Shown here in pieces: positions 12,667 through 28,276 of a stretch of DNA of 64,000 nt (positions within the stretch are counted from its first letter, which is position 1; each line of letters begins with the position of its first letter). The position numbers and the translations under genes were made by a program. The stretch covers positions 318,001-382,000 of the forward strand of contig NC_019904.1 in NCBI RefSeq assembly GCF_000325705.1, written 5' to 3'. Source of the stretch: Echinicola vietnamensis DSM 17526 (lineage in GTDB: Bacteria; Bacteroidota; Bacteroidia; Cytophagales; Cyclobacteriaceae). Under the pieces are notes generated by a model. That model worked only from the letters and a program-made list of their open reading frames with translations. It made no database searches and was not told the DNA's origin.

Positions 12667-13575
12667 CTATACTTTTTTTGCAATTCTCAATTTGGCACTT
12701 CTCGCACGGTTGTTTCTGGCCACTTCTTCAGGACTGGCCTGAATGGCTTTCCGGCTGACCGGCTCCAAGGGACGAATCAGGTTCCCATAGAAATCTTTTT
12801 CTACTTCCCCCTGGAATTTCCCTTTGCTGATAAAATTCTTGACCATCCTGTCCTCCAGGGAATGGTAACTCATCACCACCAGCCTGCCTCCGGTCTTGAG
12901 CACCTCCACGGACTGGGTCAAGGCATCTTCCAAAGCGCCCATCTCATCATTCACCTCGATCCGCAGGGCTTGGAACACTTGGGCAAAATACTTGAACTCC
13001 CGCCCTCTCGGCGCCAACTGCTGCAACAACTGCTTGAACTGCTCGGTGGTCTGAAAGGGTGCGTTGGCCCGTGCCGTCACCACCGCTTGCGCCAGTGACT
13101 TGGCATTCCGCACCTCCCCGTACATCCCGAACAACTTGTGCAGCGCCGCTTCCTCATAGGTGTTAAGCACATCCTGGGCAGACACACCGGCCAATTGGTT
13201 CATGCGCATGTCCAGCTCCCCATCAAAGCGGGTACTGAACCCCCTTGAGGGTTCATCGATCTGGTGGGAGGAAATCCCAAGGTCGCCCAAAACACCGTCT
13301 ACTTTGCTCAGCCCGTACAGCCGAAGGTACCTGGCCAGGTCCCTGAAATTCGCTTGGACAAAGGTGAAGCGCTCGTCATCAGGAGCATTTACCGCCGCAT
13401 CCTCATCTTGGTCAAAACCGTACAGTCTGCCCTCAGGCCCCAAATGTTTGAGGATTTCTTTGGAATGGCCACCCCCGCCAAACGTCAGGTCCACATAGAC
13501 CCCGTCAGGACGAATGGCCAAGCCCTCCACGCATTCGTGAAGCATCACTGGAATATGGTACGCTGTTGCACTCAT
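12667..13575 (-). CDS. rsmH: 16S rRNA (cytosine(1402)-N4)-methyltransferase RsmH (MraW)
   Basis: SAM-dependent methyltransferase acting on C1402 of 16S rRNA in the ribosomal P site. The 302 residues start with the MraW opening HIPVMLHECVEGL. The SAM motif I is DLTFGGGGHSKEIL (about 29-42), followed by GDLGISSHQID and RGFSTRFDGELDMRM. The C-terminal third holds VVMSYHSLEDRMVKNF, a conserved family block. Length is typical. It overlaps mraZ by 4 bp and is second in the operon, as in most bacteria. Confidence 0.96.
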   Translation of the reverse strand: MSATAYHIPVMLHECVEGLAIRPDGVYVDLTFGGGGHSKEILKHLGPEGRLYGFDQDEDAAVNAPDDERFTFVQANFRDLARYLRLYGLSKVDGVLGDLGISSHQIDEPSRGFSTRFDGELDMRMNQLAGVSAQDVLNTYEEAALHKLFGMYGEVRNAKSLAQAVVTARANAPFQTTEQFKQLLQQLAPRGREFKYFAQVFQALRIEVNDEMGALEDALTQSVEVLKTGGRLVVMSYHSLEDRMVKNFISKGKFQGEVEKDFYGNLIRPLEPVSRKAIQASPEEVARNNRARSAKLRIAKKV

Positions 13576-21844: not shown

Positions 21845-22040
21845 GCCCTGCCAGGGCTGGGGTTGGGGAAGTTGTAGGGGCTACAATCGGTTCCTTGTGC
21901 ATGCTGTTCCTGATTTGGAATCAGGAACTCTTGAAAAGGGGGATTTGCAATCCCCATGGAGGGGAATCTACTTGCCAATACATATTACTTGACATCGAAT
22001 ATTCATTTTCTTTTACCACGCTGCTGCTCCTAACGGAGCA
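21845..22040. repeat. Cluster of five perfect short hairpins (REP-like); rest of 21674-22314 has no gene
   Basis: Perfect inverted repeats sit side by side: GCCCTG-C-CAGGGC (21845-21857), TTGTAG-GGG-CTACAA (21872-21886), GTTCCTGATT-TGG-AATCAGGAAC (21906-21928), GGGGATT-TGC-AATCCCC (21939-21955) and TGCTCC-TAAC-GGAGCA (22025-22040). Such units resemble REP sequences mobilised by IS200-like REP-associated transposases, but no transposase is in the window. The remaining gene-free sequence on either side shows no coding signal. Confidence 0.75.
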
Positions 22041-22314
22041 TTATTGCGACACTTTTCTACGCCCTACCAGCCCAATGCCCAAACTGACTTATGCCGCTAG
22101 CTATAAAACAGTTTGGTAAAGTCATGCTACTGCTAAATCTCCTTGTGCCGTAGGCTCAAAACTGCTTCTCGAATTTACCTAGCCTACTCATAGTTAACCA
22201 CTGAATAGCATCCATTGACGTTCCAAAAGTACCGTATTTGTTTCGCCCCAAACCGCCATAAATATAAAAAGACAAAAAAGCTTCCCCATAATCACCCCAT
22301 TCCCAGCAACAGTC

Positions 22315-22375
22315 ATTCAACAAGGCATTCAGGCTTGGCTGTTCCAGCCGTCAGCATGCTTAGTTATTGTGTGTA
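22315..22375 (-). other. attC-like site 1 (61 bp), after the antitoxin gene
   Basis: Read on the minus strand this begins TACACACAATAAC eight bases after the antitoxin stop, folds into an imperfect palindrome (AAC/GTT, GCAT/ATGC, GGCTG-GAA-CAGCC) and ends GTTGAAT, an exact match to the integron core GTTRRRY. Length equals the classical 59-base element. Its opening TACACACAA is complementary to TTGTGTGTA at the start of the same cassette (23124-23133 region). This is the most canonical of the four sites. No integrase is nearby. Confidence 0.65.
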
Positions 22376-22382
22376 GTGCTTT

Positions 22383-22700
22383 TTATTCAGTTGCCAAATC
22401 CATTTTCTGGTTTAGCAACTCTACGTTAAAATTAATTTTTGCGTTTAACGCCCTGAAAACTTTTAAAATCGTCTCAAACCTTGCGTCTGTCAAATTATTC
22501 TCGATTTTGGAAATCTGAGCTTTTTTCACTCCGATTAATTCTCCGAGTTGGGTTTGTGTCAATTTCCTTTCTTTTCGAGCTTGTTTGATTGCTTCTCCGA
22601 TTAAGTCAAGTCGCAATTCGTTTTCATAAGCATCTCTTTCCGCTGTACCTTTTTTCCCAAGATATTTGTCTTTTACTTCGTCAAGTGTGTATGTTTTCAT
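22383..22700 (-). CDS. XRE-family antitoxin (HigA-like)
   Basis: DNA-binding antitoxin of a host-inhibition-type toxin-antitoxin pair. The 105 residues have a charged N-terminus and a complete helix-turn-helix at about 37-75 (KLTQTQLGELIGVKKAQISK). It starts at ATG 22700, which overlaps by one base the stop of the upstream toxin remnant; toxin-first order is the rule for higBA. The antitoxin frame is intact whereas the toxin is broken. The gene is AT-rich compared with the flanking chromosome and sits in a cassette bounded by attC-like sites, so lateral acquisition is likely. Confidence 0.85.
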   Translation of the reverse strand: MKTYTLDEVKDKYLGKKGTAERDAYENELRLDLIGEAIKQARKERKLTQTQLGELIGVKKAQISKIENNLTDARFETILKVFRALNAKINFNVELLNQKMDLATE

Positions 22701-23046
22701 TACTTCTTGTTTTTACTTTCAAAATATTTGTTCATCAATTCGGTCGCTTTGTCAATTTTCTTTTTCGGTGTTTTTTGCATTTTTTTTGACAATTCCGTGA
22801 GTTGCAATCACAATAGTCACTTCATTATCCGTTTTGTCCCAAAATGCAAAGAGTCGGTATTGCTTTTTGTTGTACAAGGTTCGAAATTCCCAAATATCTT
22901 ATGTCAGTTTTTTAAAGAGCGTATTGTCGGTTTTAACTTTTGCTCTGTCAATATTGAAAAGTATATTCTTTCGAGCCTTTTCATCGAGTGTATCCAAGAA
23001 GTCAAAAAACTTCTTTTAGAAAATCAACTTTAAATTTTTCCGTCAT
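22700..23046 (-). pseudogene. Decayed HigB/RelE-family (Gp49-like) toxin gene
   Basis: Minus-strand translation from ATG 23046 gives a RelE-superfamily toxin only if three lesions are ignored. They are a one-base expansion of a T run (plus-strand A6 at 23004-23009), an in-frame TAA at 22899-22901 in the context LT*DIWEFR, and a one-base expansion of an A run (22780-22787). Restored pieces read FDFLDTLDEKARKNILF, DIWEFRTLYNKKQYRLFAFW, IVIATHGIVKK and MQKTPKKKIDKATELMNK, matching Gp49-like HigB toxins (mRNA interferases). Two homopolymer shifts might be sequencing errors, but the nonsense codon could not be. The final stop overlaps the antitoxin ATG. Confidence 0.85.
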
Positions 23047-23123
23047 TCAGATATTTGTTTGTTACAAATGTAAAAGTTTCCTTTTTAGTAAATAAATTTT
23101 ATTCCGAAGACGTTTTCTCACAA

Positions 23124-23260
23124 TACACACAACGGTCAAGTATAAGAGCAGTAGCGGATTTCAAGGTAATTACCTTTCCGCCACCACAAAAGTTTATTAA
23201 ATGCACAGACCTTGAATTTATCACTTTCCCCGCTATTGCTCTTATACAATGTTGTAGGGC
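23124..23260 (-). other. attC-like site 2 (about 137 bp), after the DUF262 gene
   Basis: Imperfect palindrome with outer arms GCCCTACAAC (minus strand, 23260-23251) and GTTGTGTGTA (23133-23124). The inner arms TATAAGAGCAnTAGCGG and their complement match over 17 bp with one mismatch. It shares CAACGGTC, CGGATTT and CAGACCTT blocks with site 3 at 25111-25252. The last codons and stop of the DUF262 gene lie inside it, as is common when an integron cassette gene runs into its attC. Confidence 0.6.
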
Positions 23261-25068
23261 GTTTTTTCTTGTTCCGTATTCTCTCGTATTATTTTCTTCA
23301 ACAACTTTTCTCTCTCCTGAATGTACACTTTAAAGTTTTCAAATTTTAGGTCTATTGATTCAGGTATCAAAAGTGAGTTTCTTATTCCAAGGTTATGTTT
23401 CTCTTGTTTTTCTATCCAATTCTTTAATTCCGATTTGTTCTTAGATTTATTTTGTTCTTCTGAAAGTAACGCCAAATTCAACACAGTATTCCAATGACTT
23501 TGATAGAACTCAATGTCTTCTTCATCTTCTAAAAAGCTGAAATCTGAATTTTCAAATTGACTTCTTGGATATAGATGGTCAATATTTGGATTTTTAAATT
23601 CAAAATTGAATTTTGGAAAGAGAAGCGACAATACATAAAACCCATCTAAACTGTCATATGAGGTTCTTAGTATATTTTCTAACTTTTCTTCGTCCATTAA
23701 AAAACTACGGTTCGTGCCTTTGAACTTTTCCTTTAGCTGAACTAAAGGGAAATCGCTTTCGTGGTTTTTTTCAATCACTTGTTTAATTGATTTTAAAAAG
23801 CCGTCTGAACTGCCACCGAATAGCTTATTCAAAAGGGATAGGTGAAGGTAATTTTTAATTATAGATTTATTTCTAACGTGTTTGTTATCCTTATTTATCT
23901 CATTTGAACAGTCTTTTAAGTAGATGTAGTAGATTATTGGAATAACTGCATTTTTTGACCGTAAAGAATGATTGTTAAAAGACAGTGATTTTACAAGCTC
24001 AAAGCTTGATTTAATGCTTCTTGTTATTTTACCCCATTCAGATTTAATTTTTTGAATTGTTTCGCCTTGAAAGTTTTTTAAAGCAAACCTGATGTCCGCT
24101 GAGAAAAAAACCAAGCAAGTTTTTAAAACAAAGTCCTGATTAATCCCAAAACCAATATCTTCTACCTGTCTGATTAATTCGTCAATTTCTTCACGTGCTC
24201 CTTTTGTGGATTTTCCTGATTCCCAAGATGCTGTTATAATTGACATTAGTAGGTCTGCGAAAGAAAGTATAGATCCACCTGAATTAGTTCTTATGAATTC
24301 ATAAAGCACTTTGTCAAAGTCTTGATTTTTTTCTAAGAAGAAGTTGATTATTGGCTTTTCATTGGTCAGCTTATATAGCTTTAACAATGTCTCGCCTGGA
24401 AATCCACCAATATCAAGCTCGTTTTTAGATAGATAAGTAATTACGCTATGTTCGTTCTGAAATTTCAGAATTTCTCCAACTTCAAACCAAAAGCAATCAA
24501 CTTCAAATCTTTTGCCTTCTTCATCTACGACTCCTTTAGTTTTTCGATTGTTTTGTTGTTCGTGTTCATTATGAATGAGAAATCGAAAATCATATACTTT
24601 CTTTTCTTCATCATCAACAATTGGATTTAGAATATCAAGGTATAATTTCCTGCTTGGGTAATCTCGCTCATCCTTTTGATATTTCTTCTTCCTGTAAACA
24701 TACTTTTTGTAGGCATATGTACCTTTTAAACCAATATACAGACTGTTCAGTCGCTGTTGTCCGTCAATTACAGCTTTAAAGTCTTTATAGCCATTAGTAT
24801 TTCTTTCTTCGTTGTTTCCCCCTTTGTATTCAATGTATTTTCTCAAAAAATCGTAGAAACGGAACTGATTTTTAATGTTCGCATCTGTTACAGACCAAAA
24901 CATAAAAGTGTTTATGGGGTAATCCTGCATAATTGAGTCAAAAAGAAACTCAACTTGTCTTGTATTCCAAACGAACCGTCTTTGAATTGAGGGAAGAAGC
25001 AAGTCTCCTGAATCTATATTGTCTATTGCTTCCTTTACAGTTATAGCTTTCTCTAGTTCGTTTGCCAT
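23242..25068 (-). CDS. DUF262/DUF1524 protein (GmrSD/SspE-like restriction nuclease)
   Basis: Likely anti-phage nuclease. The 608 residues have an N-terminal DUF262 domain, a ParB/Srx-like NTPase fold, with LLPSIQRRFVWNTRQVEFLFDSI (first 20 residues diagnostic) near 24-46 and FKAVIDGQQRLNSLYIGL near 95-112. A long helical middle follows. The C-terminal DUF1524 HNH-type nuclease has PNIDHLYPRSQF, and HWNTVLNLALLSEEQNKSK as the downstream N...K part. GmrSD cuts glucosylated phage DNA and SspE acts with phosphorothioation systems; which applies here is unknown, and no modification genes adjoin it. AT-rich, single-gene cassette with 10-bp complementary ends, GTTGTAGGGC and GCCCTACAAC. Confidence 0.88.
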   Translation of the reverse strand: MANELEKAITVKEAIDNIDSGDLLLPSIQRRFVWNTRQVEFLFDSIMQDYPINTFMFWSVTDANIKNQFRFYDFLRKYIEYKGGNNEERNTNGYKDFKAVIDGQQRLNSLYIGLKGTYAYKKYVYRKKKYQKDERDYPSRKLYLDILNPIVDDEEKKVYDFRFLIHNEHEQQNNRKTKGVVDEEGKRFEVDCFWFEVGEILKFQNEHSVITYLSKNELDIGGFPGETLLKLYKLTNEKPIINFFLEKNQDFDKVLYEFIRTNSGGSILSFADLLMSIITASWESGKSTKGAREEIDELIRQVEDIGFGINQDFVLKTCLVFFSADIRFALKNFQGETIQKIKSEWGKITRSIKSSFELVKSLSFNNHSLRSKNAVIPIIYYIYLKDCSNEINKDNKHVRNKSIIKNYLHLSLLNKLFGGSSDGFLKSIKQVIEKNHESDFPLVQLKEKFKGTNRSFLMDEEKLENILRTSYDSLDGFYVLSLLFPKFNFEFKNPNIDHLYPRSQFENSDFSFLEDEEDIEFYQSHWNTVLNLALLSEEQNKSKNKSELKNWIEKQEKHNLGIRNSLLIPESIDLKFENFKVYIQEREKLLKKIIRENTEQEKTPYNIV

Positions 25069-25110
25069 TTTAGTTTAATATTTCTCGTTAATCCAACTGT
25101 TGTTTTAAAT

Positions 25111-25252
25111 GCCCTACAACGGTCTCGAGTATGATTAGTAACGGATTTTTAAGCACTAACTTTTCGGATTATTACAGACCTTTAATCTCTTCATTTTGTT
25201 TCGTTTAAGCGATTAAACCGCTATTTTTTATATACGTTGTTAGCCACTGGGC
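25111..25252 (-). other. attC-like site 3 (about 142 bp), after the 525-residue gene
   Basis: Minus-strand sequence opens GTGGCTAACAACG three bases after the upstream gene's stop and closes with GACCGTTGTAGGGC. Interior blocks (ATAGCGG near the start, CCGTTACT and GACC just before the GTT core) recur in site 2. The bases after GTT differ between the two sites, as expected if GTT is the crossover point. Confidence 0.6.
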
Positions 25253-25254
25253 TT

Positions 25255-26832
25255 TTATTCTTTCAACTCAAAATATTTTTCCAGAGTGTTTAATGTAAAT
25301 ACTGATTTTACAAATATTTCTCCCAAAACTTCAATGTAATTACTATCTGTAATTACAAAATATTCAATAGCTTTTTTACAGTCCTTATTAGACTCGCTAA
25401 ATGTGTGAGCAATTAGTCCAGACCTTAAATTTTGAAGATTTCTTAAAAACACAAACATATCTGGAATATTCATTCCTTTTGACTCTAAAAACTTTTCAAA
25501 CTTTCCAATTCCTCGAATTTTTGAGTCCAAATCTAACCCTTTTGCTAATTCCTTCTCATTAAGTCTATCAATAGTCAGTTTTACTATTGTTAGAGTTTGT
25601 TCACAGAAAGCTTTAACGTTGTTTGTAGTTATTTTATGCAATGCAGTAAAAAGATGCTCTTCTGTTTTTGATAATGGTTTGTACAATTGCCAACCAAACT
25701 TTTCTTGCCATTTTTTATTGAAGCTTTTATACTTTGATTTAAAGAACAAGTCAACTGTTTCAGGTTGTTCTGCCCATTGACCTTCTATCATTGTTCTGTA
25801 ATAAGTTCTACTAATATTCATTCCCTCTTTTGGTGGAATATTATATTGTTTCCAATGAAGTTGTTCCTTTTCCGGAAGCATTCTCAAATTGGTAAGAAAG
25901 ACAGGAATGTATTCATCTACATTATTGTCTATTTTTAATCTAAAAAATTTCGAACCAACACTAAATCCATCAACTTGATATTTGTTTGGTTGATTGTAGT
26001 ATTTGTTTAAAACCTCTTTTTTGAAATAAGTAACTTTAAAATGATTGCCGTCTGTTTTTCCGCAATCTTCATAAATTAATTCCCCTTCGTCATCAATTCC
26101 GATTATAAAGCTTTCATTTTTTGATTCTCCAAAATCAAAATGTGATCTCTTTGAATTATTTGGTTTAATGAATACTTTTCCCATAATCCAACTTTGAGTT
26201 TTGTCGGATACATTGCGAATTAAATGACTATAAATAAAGTCGTTTTCTTTGATTAATTCATCCTTGTGTATGATGTTCCAATCTGAAGGGATTTCTTTTA
26301 GCAACCTCATAAAATCATAGCATACTACGAAGTTCATATCTCTCATTGTGATATATTCCCTCAAATAATTGATTTTTACTTTAATCAATTTTGGCTCAAT
26401 AATTAGAACTTCGTCTAATTCCCCATAATCGCTTACATAATAAAATGTACGGTTTTGTTTGTCATTTCCTTTTTCGTAAAGTCGAAAGTAGAGAACAAAT
26501 TCCTCGGCAACATCTATGTATTTTATTGAAGTTTCCTGTAATGAAAAGCTTTTGTAGAATAAAAAAGGTTCTAAACCTTCTTCGTCATTTGATTTATATG
26601 TGTTGTCTCCGTAAACAGATGGCTTTCCTTCACTTCCCATTGAAAGTGGCCAATTATAATCTTCACTATATTTCTCAACTTTGTCGTTTGATATTAGACA
26701 ACAATATATTCCAGCAGAATCGTCAAAGTCTTTAGAATCATCTTCATATATTTTCAGCCAACCGTTTTTGATTAAGAACTTGGATTCAATTTCTTTTTTT
26801 TTGTCCTCTAAAAGAAAATAATCTTTCTCCAT
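25255..26832 (-). CDS. Unrecognised 525-residue accessory protein with a candidate HEPN-like C-terminus
   Basis: I do not recognise the family. The protein is soluble-looking, rich in Lys, Asp, Glu, Tyr and Phe, without signal peptide or membrane helices. The first 330 residues look like mixed alpha-beta; the last 150 are helical and contain LRNLQNLRSGLIAHTFSES, where RSGLIAH has the R-x5-H spacing of HEPN ribonucleases (R-polar-x4-6-H), though the usual second residue is Asn, Asp or His. A role in defence or stress is only a guess from this motif and from its place in a cassette array beside DUF262 and toxin-antitoxin genes. AT-rich codon use unlike the chromosome around it. Confidence 0.7.
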   Translation of the reverse strand: MEKDYFLLEDKKKEIESKFLIKNGWLKIYEDDSKDFDDSAGIYCCLISNDKVEKYSEDYNWPLSMGSEGKPSVYGDNTYKSNDEEGLEPFLFYKSFSLQETSIKYIDVAEEFVLYFRLYEKGNDKQNRTFYYVSDYGELDEVLIIEPKLIKVKINYLREYITMRDMNFVVCYDFMRLLKEIPSDWNIIHKDELIKENDFIYSHLIRNVSDKTQSWIMGKVFIKPNNSKRSHFDFGESKNESFIIGIDDEGELIYEDCGKTDGNHFKVTYFKKEVLNKYYNQPNKYQVDGFSVGSKFFRLKIDNNVDEYIPVFLTNLRMLPEKEQLHWKQYNIPPKEGMNISRTYYRTMIEGQWAEQPETVDLFFKSKYKSFNKKWQEKFGWQLYKPLSKTEEHLFTALHKITTNNVKAFCEQTLTIVKLTIDRLNEKELAKGLDLDSKIRGIGKFEKFLESKGMNIPDMFVFLRNLQNLRSGLIAHTFSESNKDCKKAIEYFVITDSNYIEVLGEIFVKSVFTLNTLEKYFELKE

Positions 26833-26864
26833 TTTTTATTCGTGTAGATTGGTTTTCGCCTTGT

Positions 26865-27109
26865 GCCCAACGTCTTTATATACTCAATTTGAGTATATAT
26901 TCTATTGAATATTTTTCTGTTAAATTACTAATATTTAGATCGTTATTATTTAATAATTGGTCAAATGTACTTTTAATGTTTTACAATTTTTTGGTCGATA
27001 CAGGTGTATAATTATCGGTTTAGAACCTTAGCAATTCCGAGTGGTCTCCCCGAACTTATTTCGGGATAGGCAAATCCACCGTAATTGCGGTTATACATTG
27101 GTGTAACCA
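26865..27109 (-). other. attC-like site 4 (about 245 bp), after the DUF6624 gene
   Basis: Minus strand opens TGGTTACACCAATG just after the gene's stop, shares the GTATAA and GCAATTACGG pattern with sites 2 and 3, and ends ACGTTGGGC, where GTTGGGC fits GTTRRRY exactly. It is longer than the others and contains a perfect 10-bp-arm palindrome (26877-26899, TATATACTCA and TGAGTATATA) and a small hairpin CCCGAA...TTCGGG near 27049. It may be a composite of an attC site and extra AT-rich spacer. No gene is seen in this 280-bp gap. Confidence 0.55.
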
Positions 27110-27112
27110 GCT

Positions 27113-27802
27113 TTATAGATCATTTAATTCGTTAATTTGATATAACTTAAATTCAACATCCATATCTTTTAAATATTCTTCAAGGCTTTTTTTAAATCCA
27201 ACTTGTTTTCTCCAAGTATCTATTGAGTCAGCGTTTTTAATAGGCCAAAGAAAATAAATCCATTCTCCTTTTTTATTGGCTTTTCCTTTTATTTGAGTCC
27301 CATAAATCTGTTCAAGCCCTTGTTCCATTAAGTTTCTATCTTCCATCATTGCCAAAGAAGTTTGAGTTATGTCCCCATTTTCTGCTGCTTTTCTAATTAT
27401 TGGAAGATACTTGCTTATTTTATCTGAATGCTGAATTACATAAAAAACAGCTTTGCTAGCGGGTTCACCAACTGTAGATTTACTGGGATACCCATATTTG
27501 CTGATAATACTTTCTATTTCTAAAATATTAATGCTGTCAATTTTACGCATTAAATCAAATTTTTTATTTCCATCAATATCTGATTCTTTTAAGTTCATTT
27601 GGGTTAGCAATTCAGCTTTTCTCTCCTCAGATAAGCTTCCATTTACAATTTCTCTTATTCCTTGGTCTTTCAGTAAAATGTTTTCAAGATTAGCCTTTAG
27701 TTCAAGATTAATCTTATTTTCTACAGAATTATCTTTATCGCTTTTCTTACAAGAAATTAAGATTGTCAATAGCGTCAAGAAAACTATTTTAAAGCATTTC
27801 AT
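27113..27802 (-). CDS. DUF6624-like lipoprotein
   Basis: A 229-residue predicted lipoprotein: signal with lipobox (FLTLLTILISC, Cys near residue 18) from ATG 27802; a TTG three codons upstream is less likely. The body resembles DUF6624, a family of unknown function: SIISKYGYPSKSTVGEPASK, FYVIQHSDKISKYLP, AMMEDRNLMEQGLEQIYGTQ follow the family's KYG-P, QH-D and YGTQ pattern. No role can be assigned. It is the first cassette of the minus-strand array, and its AT-rich composition differs from neighbouring chromosomal genes. Its ends (TTGTAACCA and TGGTTACA) are complementary over 8 bp. Confidence 0.78.
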   Translation of the reverse strand: MKCFKIVFLTLLTILISCKKSDKDNSVENKINLELKANLENILLKDQGIREIVNGSLSEERKAELLTQMNLKESDIDGNKKFDLMRKIDSINILEIESIISKYGYPSKSTVGEPASKAVFYVIQHSDKISKYLPIIRKAAENGDITQTSLAMMEDRNLMEQGLEQIYGTQIKGKANKKGEWIYFLWPIKNADSIDTWRKQVGFKKSLEEYLKDMDVEFKLYQINELNDL

Positions 27803-27813
27803 TTTTTTCAAAT

Positions 27814-27823
27814 TGGTTACAAC
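27814..27823 (-). other. GTT core at the outer end of the cassette array
   Basis: Minus strand reads GTTGTAACCA, the presumed start of the first cassette. It pairs with TGGTTACA at 27102-27109 after the same cassette's gene. The sequence beyond it does not look like an attC site and could be an attI-like or original chromosomal target. Confidence 0.45.
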
Positions 27824-28276
27824 ACCTTTACATCCACCACATCCCGTTCATAAACGATGACTTCCGTTTGCAAACGGGTATTCTCGAAAATTAAGCTTTT
27901 GCTCACGTTTAAAAAATACCACAAAATGGGTATTTTTCTGGGGTATAGGAGATGGGCTGGAGATCTCATCGCCAAACGGCAGGCGTACCCGGTCGGTATA
28001 GGCCCTTGGATTACTGCTGCCCAAGAGCTGGTAGGTGCGAGGGTGGTTCATGAGTAGTAGTGTTTAGGATCAAAAAACTTTTTATCCCTTAATATAGCAC
28101 TTTTCTGGTTTTTAGCGGTTACCCTCCCCGATCAATCTAGGAAAATCGTTTTTGAACTATTAGTAGAGATGTCAGCCTGAGCGTAGTCGAAGGCTAGACG
28201 TTGGATCTCGACTCCCTGCCGGACAGGCAAGCGCTTGATCTGACCCTTTTTGCCTGAATTAAATAACTTCATGGGG
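27824..28276. other. Gap with small hairpins and a possible 50-codon frame
   Basis: No convincing gene. A minus-strand frame at 27817-27969 would encode 50 residues ending RDVVDVKVL, with its stop inside the cassette core; a second 67-residue frame (27848-28051) overlaps it. Palindromes seen: CCGTTTGCAAACGG at 27864-27877 and AAAAATACC...GGTATTTTT near 27912-27938. The latter may act as a weak bidirectional terminator. A near copy of the 3' end of the next gene lies at 28114-28137. Confidence 0.5.
28174..28195. repeat. REP-like motif AGCCT...AGGCT
   Basis: AGCCTGAGCGTAGTCGAAGG plus CT: the ends AGCCT and AGGCT pair. The core GAGCGTAGTCGA is a motif I know as recurrent in Bacteroidota intergenic DNA; only one copy is in this window. 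Confidence 0.5.

Follow-up and report, generated by a model that had tools for sequence, protein, structure and literature searches.

A decayed cassette array in Echinicola vietnamensis, probably left by an integron-like platform whose recombinase lacks the I2 domain

We analysed a window of 64,000 nucleotides from the chromosome of Echinicola vietnamensis DSM 17526 (NC_019904.1, positions 318,001 to 382,000 of the forward strand; unless a locus is named, positions below are those of the window), in which minus-strand genes between 27.8 and 22.3 kb are separated by imperfect palindromes resembling the attC sites of integrons. This array is most probably what remains, in decayed form, of an integron-like cassette platform driven by a tyrosine recombinase without I2, the IntI-specific domain, a reading to which we give a probability of about 0.83. 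Several signs of decay are visible: the integrase is lost, one site is halved, another looks worn and a toxin-like frame is broken. With the integrase gone from this locus and a stop codon in the genome's other copy, the array can probably no longer move in this strain; what is new is the system rather than the activity of the present copy.

An integrase relic inside the array

The palindromes have the sequence that an initial annotation, made from the DNA alone, had described, and its placement of the array in a Bacteroidota chromosome was right. Its attC-like sites and cassette array are borne out by the core pattern ACAACNNNGTATANNNNNAATAGCGG, which has three matches in the window (≤3 mismatches) against 0.01 expected from shuffles; genome-wide the pattern yields 8 matches (≤3 mismatches) against 6 when read backwards, so that such a short core is uninformative alone. 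The proposed pairing of R′ with R″ within cassettes also holds, at 7/7 variable bases for GTTGTAGGGC/GCCCTACAAC and, by reading, for GTTGTAACCA/TGGTTACACC and GTTGTGTGTA/TACACACAAT. Other details had to be corrected. The weaker fourth pair, GTTGGGC with GCCCA, is probably due to chance, as the actual R″ of that site is AGTGGCTAAC; comparison of the two indicates that the start and end halves of cassette 2 do not belong together. The bounding sites are not all whole either, since the first one (27109-27027) is only a half, its 3′ arm deleted and fused to an integrase relic. Finally, the annotation saw no integrase, yet an integrase 3′-end relic and an attI-like relic lie inside the array (27013-26869, minus strand).

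The first relic (NYTPVSTKKL*NIKSTFDQLL, 26951-27013, minus strand) was recognised by reading against a congener, locus L221, and the second (26869-26950, minus strand) by alignment with the same locus. The attI-like relic ends in ..GAGTATATAAAGAC|GTTGGGC, with the GTT at 26871-26869 opening cassette 2, and a weak covariance-model match (26862-26913, E 0.097) falls on it. The flanks of the window array align with L221 while the array contents differ. At one end, window positions 27821-27955 align and cassette 1 does not; in its place L221 holds a 38-residue stretch and, in another frame, KNLQNIKSPFDQI, which represent a tyrosine recombinase C-terminus (8.6e-13 by tblastn against the recombinase family described below). 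Cassette 1 is thus located within the integrase relic, and the remnant is better preserved in L221 than in the window. At the other end, the counterpart of ..GAGTATATAAAGAC|GTTGGGC is ..GAGTATATTAAGAC|GTTAGCTGTA, and the DNA diverges from GTT on. In the strain comparison that the initial annotation had proposed, made against this one congener, homology ends at GTT, at 26871-26869 and at 27823-27821. The recombinase C-terminus of L221 and the relic of the window together indicate that the locus was once a platform with an integrase, an insertion region and cassettes.

Behind the insertion region of L221 stands a single cassette, carrying PtuA and PtuB (Septu) genes (PADLOC 5.6e-162 and 3.3e-98); its start, GTTAGCTGTA, answers its end, CTACAGCTAAT. 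Between the corresponding flanks, L220 holds 7.5 kb of other genes with a single match (12826-12961) to R1, our covariance model of the sites, L222 holds 2.3 kb of other contents, and in L223, L224 and L225 the gap is no more than about 0.5 kb. Intact members of the recombinase family to which the relic belongs are present in relatives.

A second locus in the same genome

Further sites of the same kind, which the initial annotation had proposed to look for, occur elsewhere in the genome, at the loci L036 and L039. A search for intI itself returned no IntI over the TIGR02249 cut-off (265 bits) in the genome, the best single piece reaching 120.9 bits; what it did return is a recombinase of another family, interrupted by a stop codon. 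This best IntI-profile match lies at 3.875 Mb, has an array of like sites directly behind it on the same strand (L036), and carries one in-frame TAA. The order at this second locus is tyrosine recombinase, attI-like region and cassettes. A near-identical recombinase of a congener (98% over the searched piece) does not have the stop. Both platforms agree up to ..GATATACAA|GTT (also read ..GGTTTACAGATATACAA|GTT) and then carry different inserts, one a cassette that we take to be rhomboid-like (GTTAGCTTGC .. GCAAGCAAAC), the other an element that is presumably IS91-like. A two-gene element, presumably IS21-like, interrupts a cassette of this second array (L036, 5844-8225).

A recombinase family without the IntI-specific insert

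Full-length matches to the recombinase at ≥50% identity occur in 24 of the 148 genomes of the host's taxonomic family, its own included. In the window's class the recombinase family (E≤1e-95) is present in at least 118 of 395 genomes and IntI over its cut-off in at least 1 of 395. A phylum-wide sample gave IntI over cut-off in at least 105 of 395 genomes; of those with a listed match, 107 in number, one belonged to the window's class. As five best candidates were scored per genome, these counts are lower bounds. Three intact relatives scored 198-218 bits with TIGR02249, under the 265-bit cut-off.

The family can be told from IntI by its length between two conserved motifs. From RVVPL to LHWLRHS the interval is 53-55 residues in 104/104 family rows, against 95 in 30/30 IntI of the same phylum and 60-61 in two Xer-like proteins of the E. 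vietnamensis genome. What is missing in all 104 rows, and present in all 30 IntI, is a stretch of about 40 residues holding the IntI-specific domain (I2, near patch III). Alignment to the structure of IntI (2a3v) likewise breaks into two pieces on either side of the missing part. The 104 rows represent at most 102 genes (L205 equals L075, and L206 equals L081) and exclude the broken or partial L036, L166, L172 and L210, whereas the 30 IntI are the best-scoring matches of the phylum-wide search. R225, K250, H315, R318, H341 and Y350, which we take to be the catalytic residues, are invariant in 20/20 family members. On these sequence features the family is not IntI.

Its closest core matches are XerA and Xer-like structures (5hxy, 4a8e), and the three members scanned all pass the cut-off of NCBIfam NF040815 (recomb_XerA_Arch). 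Xer enzymes resolve chromosome dimers. Unlike them, the family adjoins cassette arrays, and its members terminate in SP..D, in close likeness to the IntI structure. The insert-less core is shared by the recombinase of a presumably IS91-like element in L071 (4009-4815); this enzyme groups with IntI in trees and, unlike the family, belongs to a transposable element and has no N-terminal extension. Trees were computed on subsets of 88 rows and, rooted with Xer, 55 rows. In them, IntI and the recombinases of IS91-like elements fall within the insert-less family or next to it. The Xer-rooted tree nests IntI inside, but a single insert-less clade is not rejected (approximately unbiased test, p-AU 0.44), so that the test does not tell a sister from a descendant. 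This is a hint that IntI may be an offshoot of the insert-less family. Family members, which lack the IntI insert, would receive the NF040815 description ‘site-specific tyrosine recombinase/integron integrase’, and automatic annotation may mislead on this point.

Features in common with chromosomal integrons (IntI, attI, attC) are a recombinase gene, an adjacent insertion region, mostly one-gene unidirectional cassettes, palindromic sites with R″/R′ ending AAC/GTT, decay to integrase-less arrays and some defence and toxin-antitoxin-like cargo. In contrast to IntI integrons, the recombinase has no I2 insert, bears an N-terminal extension and is oriented as the cassettes are, the sites have conserved A.C mismatches, and R1 does not find sites near canonical IntI genes.

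Sites follow the recombinase on its own strand

Twenty recombinase loci were fetched. Seventeen sites share a consensus fold in which 86.9% of cells are paired against 65.0% in shuffles, a level biased by the choice of these sites for their stems, with a covariation of 0.50 against 0.15; sliding the partner arm destroyed the fold. Covariance model R1, built from sites chosen by hand and cut back in their loops, gave 36 matches at E<1e-3 in 26 sources, 33 of them in recombinase loci (14/21), and all 33 lie on the recombinase strand and downstream of the gene; by coordinates, 24 of these are not training sites. A set of 80 named relatives yielded another 36 matches (E≤0.1, 23 loci), all on the recombinase strand and 34 downstream. 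The set comprises the 80 top-ranking named loci from a scan of genomes, and the titles of nearly all place them in Bacteroidota or a taxon within it (Cyclobacterium, Algoriphagus, Flavobacterium, Polaribacter, Winogradskyella and Pedobacter among them); one is a metagenome-assembled genome titled Ignavibacteria and one is Azoarcus. Both sets together give 69/69 matches on the recombinase strand and 67 downstream. In 14 random 20-kb regions of this and related genomes there was a single R1 match (E 0.99). The surroundings of 20 canonical IntI genes, loci picked by gene and with cassettes unconfirmed, also gave a single one (E 0.18).

Among loci with at least 3 kb of downstream sequence, 29/46 have a downstream R1 match. 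Seven Flavobacterium loci (L106, L111, L115, L118, L121, L131 and L160) hold a family recombinase and at least 8 kb downstream with no R1 match. Because the whole-genome R1 search dropped long-loop sites, fetched loci were used instead; with filters off, the window search dropped them too, probably through a hit-length limit of that mode. A regular-expression scan proved too strict and was abandoned: at a score of 15 or more it picked up 6 sites, and the reversed control 1. In the Polaribacter phage P12002L (L274, 30002-39251), R1 gave six matches at E<2e-4, all on the plus strand, in a region where most genes, methyltransferases included, are on the minus strand. According to PMC9892861 this phage contains attCs, of which IntI1 recombined one; they may be the sites matched by R1.

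Cassette starts answer cassette ends

The pairing analysis rests on an expectation: if a cassette is circular and its two ends are folded onto each other, whatever follows the first GTT must pair with what precedes the last AAC. Start and end pair at 6-7/7 positions in 12/20 neighbouring site pairs, and in 9/13 in the named set. Summed over all pairs, 93/140 positions match (permuted mean 50.4), with 65/91 in the named set (35.5), and 0/20000 permutations reached either value. After the attI-like region, the cassette start pairs with R″ of the first site (≥6/7) in 15 of 28 motif-bearing loci out of 36 tested, a figure for which no chance level was computed. By eye, the motif [AG]AGTT stands within about 150 nt past the recombinase stop in 19/21 loci.

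The 21 cassettes validated by pairing contain 32 open reading frames in the direction of the site and 6 in the opposite one, and 15/21 have a single same-strand frame with none opposite. Of 20 last stop codons, 16 are within 28 bp of R″. Contigs end within 1.5 kb downstream of the recombinase in 32/74 cases, and upstream in 2/53 other genes; breaks of the assembly just behind the recombinase are what repeat arrays would cause.

Presumably IS91-like elements (in L071 from 3868, and in L076 and L084) start with GTTGAAC(A/T)AAACCTCC exactly at the cassette GTT, behind attI or sites, as if they targeted the core of both. The one in L071 has its own insert-less recombinase and a transposase.

A possible strand preference and the N-terminal domain

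After trimming of loops, the bottom strand folds better than the top strand in 68/72 sites (mean -18.2 against -15.3 kcal/mol, p 7e-13); a reversed-sequence control keeps the pairs and is hence uninformative. This preference of the trimmed sites arises because A.C mismatches become G.T on the bottom strand: among 220 non-Watson-Crick cells, 109 are A(L″).C(L′) and 7 are C.A. Under the bottom-strand rule, 56/72 sites pair at 14 or more of the 16 positions of an ungapped 16-bp stem. For IntI integrons, PMC2727003 and PMC4792948 describe the bottom strand as the substrate, with bulged bases that favour it and that I2 accommodates.

Ahead of the core, family members have a median of 199 residues and IntI 125.5. 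This N-terminal extension of the family is modelled as a small domain (18 rows, mean predicted local distance difference test, pLDDT, 87.2) that most resembles the HARP domain (Pfam PF07443) of SMARCAL1 and the N-terminal part of archaeal XPB, every single match being weak. According to PMC4035279, other SNF2 proteins gain annealing-helicase activity when a HARP domain is fused to them. We infer that the HARP-like domain reads the folded site.

Proposed mechanism and the points against it

An intact copy of the platform consists of a tyrosine recombinase gene followed by an attI-like region of about 100 bp and by cassettes inserted successively at GTT, each typically a gene with an imperfect palindrome of about 137 bp (R″-L″-loop-L′-R′) whose outer bases pair with the start of its own cassette. 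This anatomy is observed, as are the strand and position rule, the pairing of start with end, the GTT breaks between relatives and the missing IntI insert. In the mechanism that we propose, the recombinase would excise cassettes as circles and insert them at attI through the folded bottom strand of the site. Recognition of the fold, the role of I2 in IntI, would be helped by the HARP-like domain, and strand choice would come from the conserved A.C mismatches (G.T on the bottom strand) and unequal spacers more than from bulged bases. At the window locus, the integrase would have been lost through insertion of a cassette and deletion.

Several observations weigh against this scheme. The evidence is comparative, the mechanism being drawn from sequence, and a single-strand hairpin and a cruciform cannot be told apart here. 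The two window sites folded at full length slightly favour the top strand (-21.8 against -21.2, and -7.0 against -4.6 kcal/mol), and the resemblance to HARP is weak in each single test. R1 finds nothing in 17 of the 46 recombinase loci with at least 3 kb downstream, 8 of them Flavobacterium, where there may be another site type or a loss of sites; 5/17 of its training sites were not recovered at E<1e-3, and its whole-genome search recovered only 3 sites in the E. vietnamensis genome. Mismatched neighbouring pairs number 8/20 and 4/13; they may reflect missed sites or decay, as many are far apart and a site may have been overlooked. Lastly, the only recombinase of the family detected in this genome has a stop codon.

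Alternative explanations

The alternative with the highest probability, which we nevertheless regard as unlikely, is an action of Xer type on double-stranded or cruciform DNA, for which the palindromes would need no single-strand fold. The nearness of the family core to XerA and Xer-like structures speaks for it, as does the lack of bottom-strand preference in the two full-length window sites; the family also lacks I2, which IntI requires for cassette capture (PMC7790495). Complementarity between start and end across about 137 bp, on the other hand, matters only when the site folds, and the bottom-strand bias of the trimmed sites suggests a strand-specific substrate.

The initial annotation had called the array CALIN-like (cluster of attC sites lacking integron-integrases). 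The label fits insofar as this is a cassette array with attC-like sites; strictly, a CALIN consists of attCs of IntI integrons, and the partner here is another recombinase. That a canonical IntI once mobilised canonical attC sites, in this genome or in that of a donor, we consider improbable. The general anatomy is alike, integrons are reported in Bacteroidota (PMC9024848 and PMC8618304), and the six R1 matches fall in phage P12002L, whose reported attCs include the one recombined by IntI1 (PMC9892861). Yet the genome has no IntI over cut-off and at least 1/395 genomes of the class has one, R1 gives one match (E 0.18) across 20 canonical IntI loci, and in relatives the sites sit behind the other recombinase, which the L221 relic at the window locus also matches.

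Terminators or a repeat family unrelated to recombination, with the recombinase adjoining by coincidence, would account for hairpins immediately behind genes and for site type S4 with its repeated gene-less tail, an explanation that is very improbable and largely refuted already by the pairing test, given also the strand rule (69/69), the position rule (67/69), the GTT breaks between relatives and the nearly clean random regions. Equally hard to credit is an array made by single-strand transposons (IS91- or IS605-like) using GTT targets: in L071, L076 and L084, elements presumed IS91-like do open with GTTGAAC immediately after attI or a site, but transposon ends are conserved, whereas cassette ends are variable and complementary within each cassette.

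Returning to the platform run by an I2-less recombinase, it is possible, though somewhat less likely than not, that integrons of a second kind are at work here, in which hairpin cassettes are recombined by an enzyme without I2 and the folded strand is read by a HARP-like domain. Such integrons would be widespread in a class of Bacteroidota that almost lacks IntI, and would stand near the source lineage of IntI. Were this so, attC-like cassettes would have existed before I2, and the first origin of integrons could become open to test in a still functioning recombinase of this kind, together with its attI and its attC-like cassettes. It would also put the cassette arrays of a whole bacterial class, some with defence cargo (Septu), outside the definition used to search for integrons. 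In the full-text integron literature covered by our search, outside which lay most subscription papers and all preprints, we recognised no description of such a platform.

Genes and sites of the window array

All features of the array are on the minus strand. Cassette 1 starts at 27823 with GTTGTAACCA (27823-27814), its GTT (27821-27823) being the point where homology with L221 stops, and ends with TGGTTACACC at 27100. Its gene (27113-27811, 232 amino acids) encodes a DUF6624 protein (Pfam PF20329 3.8e-15), lipoprotein-like by reading. The halved site that follows (27027-27109) retains R″ TGGTTACACC and L″ GTATAACCGCAATTACGG and has its 3′ arm deleted; a complete version of this L″, with L′ arm and GTT, exists in another array of the genome (L039, about 5450-5295). 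Cassette 2 has a gene of 525 amino acids (25255-26832) whose product has no Pfam, PADLOC or NCBIfam match at E≤0.001, and site S2 (25111-25248; R1 50.1 bits, a training site), which at full length folds no better than shuffles and may be worn. An Rfam search of the region gave no family for the sites, and one sub-threshold match elsewhere.

The clean example is cassette 3 (25120-23131), which starts with GTTGTAGGGC and whose site opens with GCCCTACAAC. Its gene (23242-25068, 608 amino acids) is GmrSD_N/DUF262-like (PF03235 4.8e-27) and matches PADLOC HEC-05 at 3e-191, so that the defence-type cargo first proposed holds for some of the array. The stop codon lies inside site S3 (23124-23260; R1 62 bits, also a training site), 19 bp beyond the start of R″, and S3 does fold at full length (z -4.6 and -4.4). 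DNA of cassette 3 is matched in 12 of 117 other genomes of the host's taxonomic family, over the site and near edge and not over the gene; relatives thus share the site and not its gene. Two candidates per genome were scored, and as the query ended 2 bases past GTT, the 3′ limit of these matches is uninformative and only the 5′ side counts.

Cassette 4 starts with GTTGTGTGTA and ends with TACACACAAT. It holds an interrupted frame with stops inside (22701-23046), found by reading and presumably RelE/HigB-like, and a helix-turn-helix antitoxin-like gene of 105 amino acids (22383-22700; HTH_3 2.3e-14; TIGR03070 5.2e-15, under its cut-off). Site S4 (TACACACAATAACTAAGCATGC...TTGTTGAATG, 22319-22375) is of a second type, seen also in L220, in L221 and twice in L036. 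Behind it, a gene-less terminal stretch runs from GTT (21999-22321) and is common to L220 and L221. Near-copies of it stand behind the two second-type sites in L036 (about 8710-8520 and 5345-5190), and the stretch, recurring at both loci and in congeners, is possibly a gene-less cassette.

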